This document shows, piece after piece, positions 17,125-32,283 of a DNA stretch of 32,749 nt (its first letter is position 1; every line of letters starts with the position of its first letter). The translations under genes were made by a program, and so were the position numbers. The stretch is from contig PABV01000035.1 of the NCBI GenBank assembly GCA_002699425.1, forward strand, positions 2,701 to 35,449, read 5' to 3'. The notes under the pieces were generated by a model that saw only the letters and a program-made list of their open reading frames with translations, did not search any database and was not told the DNA's origin. This DNA comes from Methanobacteriota archaeon (GTDB taxonomy: Archaea; Thermoplasmatota; Poseidoniia; Poseidoniales; Poseidoniaceae).

Positions 17125-17211
17125 TGGCGCCGAGAGAGAGATTTGAACTCCCGAGGGAACGGGCCCACGCGATTTCCAGTCGCGCGCACTACCAGGCTAT
17201 GCGATCTCGGC
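17125..17211 (-). tRNA. tRNA-Ser (anticodon GGA)
   Basis: The minus strand folds as a class II tRNA. The acceptor GCCGAGA pairs with TCTCGGC, and the D-stem is GCAT/GTGC. The anticodon stem CGCGA/TCGCG encloses a seven-base CTGGAAA loop. A long variable arm has a GGG/CCC stem, and the T-stem GGGAG/CTCTC encloses TTCAAAT. The discriminator is G, as in serine tRNAs, and CCA is encoded (17125-17127). No intron is present. An AATTAAAC box about 30 bases upstream could be its promoter. Confidence 0.95.
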
Positions 17212-17277
17212 TTTGACTTGCGGACCAACCTTTTCCGTTTAATTGCGCCGATTGGGTTTTTTCTATTTCCGAATCGG

Positions 17278-17283
17278 TTATAT
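17278..17283 (+). promoter_or_regulatory. TATA box of tRNA-Thr
   Basis: TTATAT is centred about 28 bases before the first base of mature tRNA-Thr at 17309, the usual archaeal TATA-to-start distance. Confidence 0.55.
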
Positions 17284-17308
17284 CAACTCGGTAGGTCGCC
17301 CCCTTTGC

Positions 17309-17383
17309 GCCACCGTGGCTTAGTGGTATAGCACCTCATTGGTAATGAGGAGGTCGCGAGTTCGATCCTCGCCGGTGGCTCCA
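17309..17383 (+). tRNA. tRNA-Thr (anticodon GGT)
   Basis: A complete cloverleaf. The acceptor is GCCACCG/CGGTGGC, the anticodon stem CCTCA/TGAGG encloses TTGGTAA, and the T-stem GCGAG/CTCGC encloses TTCGATC. The discriminator is T and CCA is encoded at 17381-17383. There is no intron. It is divergent from tRNA-Ser. Confidence 0.96.
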
Positions 17384-29498: not shown

Positions 29499-29921
29499 AT
29501 GTCATCAGTCGATATGCTCATTGAAAAACTAAATCAAGCACTTGCTTTTGAATTACGTGCAATAAACATGTATGCGCATTATGCAGCCTATGTTAATGGC
29601 ATTCATCGAATCCATCTCAATCCTCTATTTACTACTGAAGCAACCGAATCCATTCAACACGCCAATATTGTTAGGGGAGCAATTGTAAAATTAGGTGGTA
29701 TTTGTGTAACAGAAAGGCATGATTCAGAGATTGTTCATACGGAGAATTACAACGAGATGCTAAAATTTGCTCTAGATACTGAAAAGTATGCAAGTGAATT
29801 ATACCACGGGATATTGCAGAGTGTTGAACAAATAGGCGATGATGAACTTTTTGACTCCATTGAAGGTATTTATTTCTCCGAACTGCGAAGCATTGAAGAA
29901 ATGCGGATGTTAATCCAATAA
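29499..29921 (+). CDS. Ferritin-like / bacterioferritin-like diiron protein
   Basis: The protein has 140 residues, predicted all-helical with a four-helix bundle pattern. Carboxylate/His positions recur as in bacterioferritin/Dps-like proteins: E18 (LAFELRAINMYAHY), E47/E50 and H54 (ATESIQHAN), E95 (DTEKYASELY) and E128 (YFSELRSIEE). The E-to-H spacing in helix 2 is one residue longer than in classical Bfr, so the exact ligand set needs an alignment. A role in iron storage or oxidative protection is likely. A TTTAAATT box near 29459 could be its promoter. No TTTAGG palindrome lies upstream, but the gene sits directly before the iron-type operator array. Confidence 0.8.
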   Translation: MSSVDMLIEKLNQALAFELRAINMYAHYAAYVNGIHRIHLNPLFTTEATESIQHANIVRGAIVKLGGICVTERHDSEIVHTENYNEMLKFALDTEKYASELYHGILQSVEQIGDDELFDSIEGIYFSELRSIEEMRMLIQ

Positions 29922-29967: not shown

Positions 29968-29983
29968 TTTAGGGAAGCCTAAA
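29968..29983. promoter_or_regulatory. DtxR/IdeR-like operator 1
   Basis: TTTAGG-GAAG-CCTAAA, perfect 6-bp arms. The half-site resembles the TTAGG/CCTAA core of DtxR/IdeR metal-repressor sites. Confidence 0.65.
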
Positions 29984-30084: not shown

Positions 30085-32283
30085 ATGAAAACAAAAATAA
30101 TTATGACCGTTATGATGCTCTTTAGTGCAGCATTTATTGGTTGTTTAGGCGAGGATGAGAGTGTATCAGATAGTAGTTCTGATGTTATAGAAAAGTGCCA
30201 AGGAGATAAACTTGTGATTGCATATGATGTGAAAGATGATATGACTGCTGATTCTCTGGACAACCCAAACAGAATTTCTGAATACTTGTGTGAAAAATTG
30301 GGAATGGATGTTTCAATCTATGATGTAGGTAGTACAGGTATTGCCATGGAAGCACTCCGATTCGGTAATGCAGATATTGCCATGAACATTGACGGCGGTC
30401 CTGCTTGGGTTGGTTGGAATGCCTATGGCTTGGAAGTCATGGCTGCAGATACAAAAGATGATGGTAGAGCATATTACGATGCACATGCTTGGGTTCATGC
30501 AGATTCAGAGATGGCGCTAGCCGCAAAGGATAACGATCCCACAACAGATCCGTTTGCATTATTGCAAGGAAAAACATCTTGCCATACAGGATGGTTAAAA
30601 TCAGCAGGCATGTTGATGCCTATGGGTTACCTCATCGGAAACGGATATGCAAACGTCGTTGGAGATATGAACGAAACCGAAACTCTACGAGGAACAATCA
30701 ACGATTTCTTTGACGGAAGTAAAAGTAATGGCAATCCAGCCTCAATTCCAGATTCTGGAGCTCTATACTCTGGATACTCGGGTGCATTAGAATGCTTGAG
30801 CAGTGGATATGGAGACGTCGCATTTGCTAAAGACTCAACTGTAGGTAGTTATTGTAACAATGAAGTAGCTACTGACAATGAAGAATGGTGTTTGGATGTT
30901 GATAACTACTATGCTCTACCAAAATTCGGTTCTTCTCCAAGTCACTCTGTGATGTTTAATGACGATGTGCTAGATGATGACAAGGAAGAAAAAATTAGAA
31001 ATGCCCTTGTGCAAATGGAGAACGATTCTCAGGGTCTGAAGATTTTGCAGGAAGTACTTGGTACTGATTCCATGGTATCGACAGACGCAAACACACACTT
31101 AGGGACGTATGGAAATGCTCTACAAAACATTCCAGGAATCTCAAGCAAATATGGCAACGCATTTGTCGATGGCGCAGCAACTGCTCCAATAAAATCGACA
31201 ATCAACATTGCATATTATCTGGCCGATGATTCCTCTGCCAATGCAAATGCGATTGGTATGGCTGATCGATTGGCAAGCGATTTAGGAGTAAATGTAAACC
31301 TGTATGATGTATCTTCTGAGGGGATGATTGTCCAAGCACTAAGGTTTGGTCAGGCGGATATTGGATTCATGGAAGGGGGTCCAGCATGGATTGGATGGAA
31401 AGAATATGACTTATCCGTCCTAGCAGTTGAAACAACCACTTCTTCAGGCGACACTTATTACAACGCCTCTGCATGGGTGCTAGCAAACTCAACAATGGCT
31501 CAATACCATCTTGACGATGATCCAACTACCGATCCGTTTTCTGAATTAGCAGGAAAAACCTCTTGCCACACTGGCTGGTTAAAGTCTGCTGGTATGTTGA
31601 TGCCAATGGGATACCTTATCGGAAATGGATACGTAAATCCTGTCGGAGATGCAGATGATATCAATTCTCTCAGAAATACCATTGATGCTCACTTTGATGG
31701 TTCCACAAGTAACGGAAATGCAGCCTCTATTCCTGAATCAGGTGCTCTATATTCTGGTTACGGCGGAGCAATTGAGTGTTTGAGTAGCGGTTATGGTGAC
31801 GTGGCTTTTGCGAAGGGCGATGACTTTAGCACTGTTGACAAATACTGCAACAATGACAATGCTTCAGATAACGAAGAATGGTGTTTGCCAATCGGGGATT
31901 ACGTGCAGTTGCCTTCTTGGGGCCAATCTCCAAGTCATCCAGTAATGTATAATTCTGAAAAGCTAGATGTACATACAAGAAATGCAATTCTGAATGCAAT
32001 GTTAAGTTGGAATGATGAGATGTGGGTTCAGGATTACGCAATTGGTGGCCAAACGTATACTGGATGTTACAATACTGTGACTCATGTGGTTGCAGATATC
32101 CCCCAAGTTCAATGTGGTGGAGAAATTTTGTCAACTGTAACTTCAAAGGGCTACGGTCTAAAAGCAGGGAATAGTCAAAATCACTTAGGAAGTTACTCCA
32201 GTCTTCTTGCTGCCATACCTGGTCTCTCCGAATATTTCCATGGAGAGAAGTATGGAATCGATGACGCAGAAAATTCCGCTTAA
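30085..32283 (+). CDS. Bilobal transferrin-like lipoprotein (iron ABC substrate-binding candidate)
   Basis: The protein has 732 residues. The signal MKTKIIMTVMMLFSAAFIGC ends in a lipobox, so Cys20 is probably lipidated. Two tandem homologous lobes follow (about 35-365 and 370-725). Each carries motifs known from animal transferrins: GKTSCHTG, a Y-S-G-Y-x-G-A-x-E-C-L block running into GDVAFAK, and SPSH. Residues matching the Fe(III) ligands Asp/Tyr/Tyr/His are D103, Y131, Y231, H287 in lobe 1 and E430, Y459, Y559, H618 in lobe 2. Anion-site Thr is kept (T168, T496) and Arg is Lys (K172, K500). Cys166/Cys237 match a transferrin disulfide. An alternative is a PhnD-like phosphonate binder of the same fold. 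The ABC ATPase downstream and iron-type operators upstream support iron uptake. Confidence 0.8.
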   Translation: MKTKIIMTVMMLFSAAFIGCLGEDESVSDSSSDVIEKCQGDKLVIAYDVKDDMTADSLDNPNRISEYLCEKLGMDVSIYDVGSTGIAMEALRFGNADIAMNIDGGPAWVGWNAYGLEVMAADTKDDGRAYYDAHAWVHADSEMALAAKDNDPTTDPFALLQGKTSCHTGWLKSAGMLMPMGYLIGNGYANVVGDMNETETLRGTINDFFDGSKSNGNPASIPDSGALYSGYSGALECLSSGYGDVAFAKDSTVGSYCNNEVATDNEEWCLDVDNYYALPKFGSSPSHSVMFNDDVLDDDKEEKIRNALVQMENDSQGLKILQEVLGTDSMVSTDANTHLGTYGNALQNIPGISSKYGNAFVDGAATAPIKSTINIAYYLADDSSANANAIGMADRLASDLGVNVNLYDVSSEGMIVQALRFGQADIGFMEGGPAWIGWKEYDLSVLAVETTTSSGDTYYNASAWVLANSTMAQYHLDDDPTTDPFSELAGKTSCHTGWLKSAGMLMPMGYLIGNGYVNPVGDADDINSLRNTIDAHFDGSTSNGNAASIPESGALYSGYGGAIECLSSGYGDVAFAKGDDFSTVDKYCNNDNASDNEEWCLPIGDYVQLPSWGQSPSHPVMYNSEKLDVHTRNAILNAMLSWNDEMWVQDYAIGGQTYTGCYNTVTHVVADIPQVQCGGEILSTVTSKGYGLKAGNSQNHLGSYSSLLAAIPGLSEYFHGEKYGIDDAENSA

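Follow-up and report, generated by a model that had tools for sequence, protein, structure and literature searches.

A two-lobed transferrin-family lipoprotein of Poseidoniales-type archaea, probably the binding protein of an iron-regulated ABC importer

The window, by which we mean the whole 32,749-nucleotide stretch of archaeal DNA that was analyzed, contains an uninterrupted open reading frame that starts with ATG and encodes a lipoprotein of 732 amino acids (Table 1). SCHTG, GDVAFAK, and SPSH each occur once per lobe of the protein, as does a G-Y-x-G-A-x-E-C-L block, which reads GYSGALECL in one lobe and GYGGAIECL in the other, and the two lobes share 174 identities over 310 aligned positions (56%). 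The tandem arrangement that had been proposed in a sequence-only reading of this DNA, with all of these motifs shared by the two lobes, was therefore found in full. The ferritin-like protein encoded directly upstream has relatives that adjoin one-lobed members of the same family at two other loci (L056 and L060). Elsewhere in the window, genes for tRNA-Ser (GGA) and tRNA-Thr (GGT) lie on opposite strands (17125-17383).

Table 1. Features of the transferrin-family locus, in coordinates of the window.
Feature	Coordinates	Strand	Evidence and details
Ferritin-like protein, 140 aa, directly upstream	29499..29921	+	PF00210 E=1.9e-17, 63.9 bits, cut-off 24.5
Predicted IdeR/DtxR-type operator 1, TTAGGGAAGCCTAA	29969..29982		Consensus in PMC8464063
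Predicted IdeR/DtxR-type operator 2, TTAGGTGACCCTAA	30001..30014		Match to TTAGGNNNNCCTAA
Predicted IdeR/DtxR-type operator 3, TTAGGCCCCCCTAA	30033..30046		Match to TTAGGNNNNCCTAA
Predicted IdeR/DtxR-type operator 4, TTAGGGCTCCCTAA	30055..30068		Match to TTAGGNNNNCCTAA
Transferrin-family lipoprotein, two-lobed, 732 aa	30085..32283	+	PF00405 E=2.3e-32; PF12974 E=9.4e-28; top PDB matches lactoferrin/ovotransferrin
Signal peptide, with lipobox FIG-C20 at its end	30085..30144	+	G19 and C20 invariant among 21 bilobal relatives aligned
Lobe 1	30205..31158	+	D103, Y131, Y231, H287; anion-site T168, K172; Cys pair C166/C237; alignment columns, AlphaFold2, Foldseek
Lobe 2	31159..32280	+	E430, Y459, Y559, H618; anion-site T496, K500; Cys pair C494/C565; alignment columns, full-length model
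ABC transporter ATPase gene start, cut by contig end	32532..32749	+	72-aa open ORF; 52% identity with the ATPase that follows the L034 homologue

The relationship of the protein to transferrins, which had been suggested from its motifs, is supported by profile, pairwise, and fold searches and by a tree. Bacterial proteins of the PhnD type do not pass these tests. Its best Pfam family is Transferrin (112.9 bits against a cut-off of 20.3), followed by PF12974, the family of phosphonate-binding solute-binding proteins (97.6 bits, cut-off 27); PF12974 is also significant but is not the better match. Such a second match would be expected if the archaeal family descends from PhnD-type solute-binding proteins. 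PF00405 also scored above its cut-off in all one-lobed and two-lobed relatives scanned with Pfam. When the PDB was searched with phmmer, lactoferrin and ovotransferrin were the best solved relatives of the 732-residue protein (E about 1e-21), and a family profile of 30 rows, nearly all of them one-lobed, reached ovotransferrin at E=2.4e-48 and had solely transferrin-family chains among its best 60 matches. Scores of this order lie well beyond what chance would give.

Structure prediction had been proposed as another check of the relationship. The AlphaFold2 model of lobe 1 (pLDDT 93.1, pTM 0.89) was compared with the PDB using Foldseek, and ranks 1 to 47 were all occupied by transferrin-family lobes (best E 8.8e-15, TM 0.56-0.66), with PtxB, which binds phosphite, coming next; the highest TM, 0.66, was obtained against the iron-loaded open N lobe of ovotransferrin. 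The best 50 fold matches of the two-lobed model (pLDDT 83.2, pTM 0.78) were likewise all transferrins, while the full-length TM was about 0.3 (0.28-0.44; best 0.44, melanotransferrin), a value to be read with the limited confidence of inter-lobe placement at this pTM. In the models, the individual lobes fit transferrins and it is the packing between them that appears to differ. Because the lobe packing of melanotransferrin also differs from that of serum transferrin (PMC7804310), packing like that of serum transferrin does not seem essential for membership in the family.

The residues expected to hold iron were located by aligning 82 lobes of the family to four lobe segments of metazoan origin, from ovotransferrin and lactoferrin. 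The eight ligands proposed in the sequence-only reading fall exactly on the columns of the D60/Y92/Y192/H253 type in transferrin, with Glu in place of Asp in lobe 2. Strict D/Y/Y/H is found in 28 of the 31 single lobes, 18 of the 25 N lobes, and 15 of the 26 C lobes, and E/Y/Y/H occurs in four further C lobes, among which is lobe 2 of the protein studied here. The anion-site Thr is near-invariant across family lobes, the anion-binding Arg is replaced with Lys in most of them, including both lobes of this protein, and the Cys residues of SCHTG and ECL are invariant. In transferrin, replacement of the Asp ligand with Ser does not abolish iron binding, and in serum transferrin single mutants of the anion-site Thr and Arg are impaired in binding whereas the double mutant loses it (PMC7804310). 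Judging from these mutants, E430 and K172/K500 may weaken iron binding but would not exclude it. Two-lobed copies that have lost the iron ligands in both lobes were also observed, most of them behind FEA1-type genes (L035, L056, L057, L058, L059, L060, and L074), which means that not every family member can bind iron in the manner of transferrin. Most of the genomes with such degenerate copies also hold an intact one-lobed copy, and the degenerate protein behind FEA1 genes may, as a speculation, serve as a docking partner.

The promoter of the gene contains four perfect TTAGGNNNNCCTAA palindromes between positions 29969 and 30068, where shuffled sequences are expected to give 0.01 per window. 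TTAGGNNNNCCTAA is the exact 14-bp consensus of iron-dependent regulators of the IdeR/DtxR type (PMC8464063), and a gene for a DtxR-family repressor (PF01325, C26:28335) is present in the source genome. Six sites were found in the 1.91-Mb assembly, against four for the reversed control pattern; the fifth lies just before a gene for an FEA1-type lipoprotein on contig 21 (L094:1-463), which is cut by the contig start, and the sixth (C47:31340), located inside a reading frame of 1401 amino acids, is probably due to chance. Across the family, TTAGGNNNNCCTAA stands directly upstream of 22 of 32 genes, compared with 2.4% of random windows of the same loci, and most of the remaining genes follow an FEA1 gene that bears it. 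Among the independent indications of iron, the match to the iron-box operator is the strongest.

The neighborhood of the family members is that of an ABC transporter. The protein had been guessed to feed an ABC importer, and the guess is borne out by the truncated ATPase gene downstream and, for 24 of 32 family genes, by an ATPase of the ABC type and a PhnE-type permease that lie no more than 2.6 kb away, mostly directly downstream; the permease tested scored above the PhnE cut-off. No permease gene was found in the assembly of the source genome, which is 88% complete and in which the contig ends in the ATPase gene. In several relatives, a gene for an FEA1-type lipoprotein (NF038033, E=2.9e-107), belonging to an algal iron-assimilation family, directly precedes the two-lobed gene, and ferritin-like, GSDH, or GDPD genes are found close to several of the one-lobed copies. 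At L056, L057, L058, L060, L072, L074, L097, and L099, the gene after the one-lobed copy encodes a lipoprotein that resembles glucose/sorbosone dehydrogenase (PF07995), and a small GDPD-like gene often comes before the one-lobed copy.

Family matches were obtained in 43 of 59 related genomes and in 74 of 293 genomes of the phylum; 14 control genomes gave none. The named relatives belong to Thalassarchaeaceae, Poseidoniaceae, and other Thermoplasmata MAGs. The family takes a one-lobed form of about 320-380 amino acids and a two-lobed form of about 700-815 amino acids, which occur side by side in several genomes; a two-lobed member of 815 amino acids (L073:2565-5009) has an insertion of about 95 residues in lobe 1. 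Outside Thermoplasmatota, the family was looked for in plasmid, phage, and viral collections. Phages and viral contigs gave no match, so carriage by them was set aside. Plasmid 2 of Natronococcus occultus SP4 encodes a distant, frame-broken relative without the Cys pair, flanked by a DtxR-type regulator on one side and an ATPase-PhnE pair on the other (L104:7162-10540). PhnD-type proteins encoded on alphaproteobacterial plasmids (L105-L108), whose genes adjoin a cytochrome c peroxidase gene, have Tyr, Tyr, and His on the ligand columns and lack the Asp and SCHTG; they are possible further intermediates.

From the homology, fold, ligand columns, operon, and iron-box operators computed here, together with the gene for the DtxR-family repressor, we infer, with a probability of roughly 0.8, that the protein is a PhnD-type ABC binding protein of an iron importer, which carries a transferrin-type site for Fe(III) and an anion and is regulated by iron. 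The importer would have the layout of PhnCDE phosphonate transporters, consisting of the binding lipoprotein, an ATPase, and a PhnE-type permease, and in this family a ferric site of the transferrin kind would have evolved from the cleft with which a PhnD-type protein binds its anion. Fe(III) would be held in each lobe by two Tyr residues, His, and Asp, the last being Glu in lobe 2, while a synergistic anion, presumably carbonate by analogy, would rest on Thr and Lys where a helix begins, and a putative disulfide would link the segment of SCHTG to that of ECL. Anchored in this way, the lipoprotein might capture Fe(III) on the outer side of the membrane, whereupon each lobe would close and the metal would be passed to the permease for transport into the cell. 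Once iron is sufficient, a repressor of the DtxR/IdeR type would switch off the operon. The most likely function would seem to be high-affinity capture of Fe(III), with a synergistic anion, at the membrane on behalf of an ABC importer whose expression is repressed by iron.

Other readings of the protein were also considered. One, which we regard as unlikely, is that it serves metal uptake by binding a ferric complex with another anion such as phosphate, or another hard metal (Mn, Ga, or Al), rather than Fe(III)-carbonate. A different anion could be favored by PhnD ancestry and by the substitution of Lys for the anion Arg, and the regulators of the DtxR family include Mn-sensing members, but the operator equals the consensus of the iron type of IdeR/DtxR, and the FEA1 and ferritin-like neighbors also point to iron. 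It is less probable still that the protein is an ordinary phosphonate, phosphite, or phosphate binding protein of an ABC transporter with a superficial look of transferrin. The match to PF12974, the PhnC-like ATPase and PhnE-like permease, and the position of PtxB as the first non-transferrin fold match would all suit such a protein. The NCBIfam models of PhnD type, however, stayed below their cut-offs (33.3 against 261.1 bits for TIGR03431, 57.5 against 112.05 bits for TIGR01098), and neither the Asp, nor the SCHTG block, nor the Cys pair is present in PhnD-type proteins. As controls, four bacterial binding proteins of the PhnD type matched PF12974 at about 1e-55 and gave no match to PF00405 at E up to 1, and one such protein searched against the PDB retrieved structures of the PtxB/HtxB/ArrX/PhnD type only; with the controls failing the transferrin tests in this way, an ordinary PhnD protein was rejected. 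The iron-box operator common to this gene and the FEA1-type genes, and the ferritin-like neighbor, also speak against it. Least probable of all is a eukaryotic transferrin gene gained by horizontal transfer or present as contamination: although metazoan lobes branch beside the deepest archaeal lobes, where the branching is weakly placed, the gene lies within an ABC operon in an archaeal genome assembled as one contig (G011) and in many others, a spread and context for which contamination was rejected, and the family has kept strong similarity to PF12974 and the PhnE partner, with one-lobed proteins as its deepest members.

A tree built from 44 lobes splits the archaeal and metazoan ones from PhnD-type proteins with support of 100/100, and 29 Poseidoniales-type lobes are split from metazoan lobes with support of 95/97; the junction of the metazoan lobes with the deepest archaeal lobes is weakly placed, being limited by long branches and partial metazoan segments. 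It follows that the two-lobed form arose independently of the animal one, through a lobe duplication separate from that in animals. The sequence-only reading had also held that such a protein bears on the descent of transferrins from periplasmic binding proteins. The archaeal family does bear on this question, but the idea itself had already been published, since McQuaid 2018, according to PMC7676907, traced transferrin and phytotransferrin to a shared origin within the phosphonate-binding proteins. The literature searched contained no account of the archaeal transferrin family, its operon, or its operators; automatic Pfam annotations may exist. One scenario, which we put forward tentatively and hold to be somewhat short of an even chance, is that eukaryotic transferrins derive from this prokaryotic lineage. 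Transferrin would then have started out as the one-lobed lipoprotein of a PhnCDE-type iron importer, which had its ferric site before animals arose, and at least two independent doublings would have followed, one in marine archaea and one in the animal line.

The family would represent an intermediate, in which the predicted ferric site of transferrin is built on a PhnD-type binding protein that still has its ABC importer attached. A two-lobed relative of transferrin in common uncultured archaea of the ocean makes a prokaryotic root of transferrins directly testable, and the coexistence of one-lobed and two-lobed forms within single genomes offers a direct test of what is gained by lobe doubling. 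The findings also suggest a route by which Poseidoniales-type (Marine Group II) archaea acquire iron in iron-poor water. If the capture of iron depends on carbonate, which is possible, this would matter under ocean acidification.

Among known iron-binding systems, the FbpA-type ferric-binding proteins of bacteria resemble the archaeal protein by analogy, as ABC binding proteins for Fe(III), and no match to them was listed for it in Pfam, NCBIfam, or PDB sequence scans. Phytotransferrin/FEA1 (PF07692, NF038033) shares the role in iron assimilation, and archaeal lipoproteins of the FEA1 type have the same operator and frequently belong to the operon, but it is a separate family, and PF07692 was not among the Pfam families listed for the 732-residue protein. 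The PhnD/PtxB/HtxB-type proteins (PF12974) of PhnCDE importers agree with the archaeal family in fold, operon partners, and profile similarity, and several of them even possess the first ligand Tyr, while they differ in the residues and the PF00405 match described above. The metazoan transferrins (PF00405), which include serum transferrin, lactoferrin, ovotransferrin, and melanotransferrin, differ from the archaeal family in that the latter is an ABC-operon lipoprotein with Lys for the anion Arg, retained PhnD-like character, independent doubling of its lobes, and a modeled inter-lobe packing of its own (TM 0.28-0.44); they nevertheless share with it the D/Y/Y/H columns, SCHTG, GYxGAxxCL, and GDVAFxK, as well as the matching Cys pair and the lobe fold.
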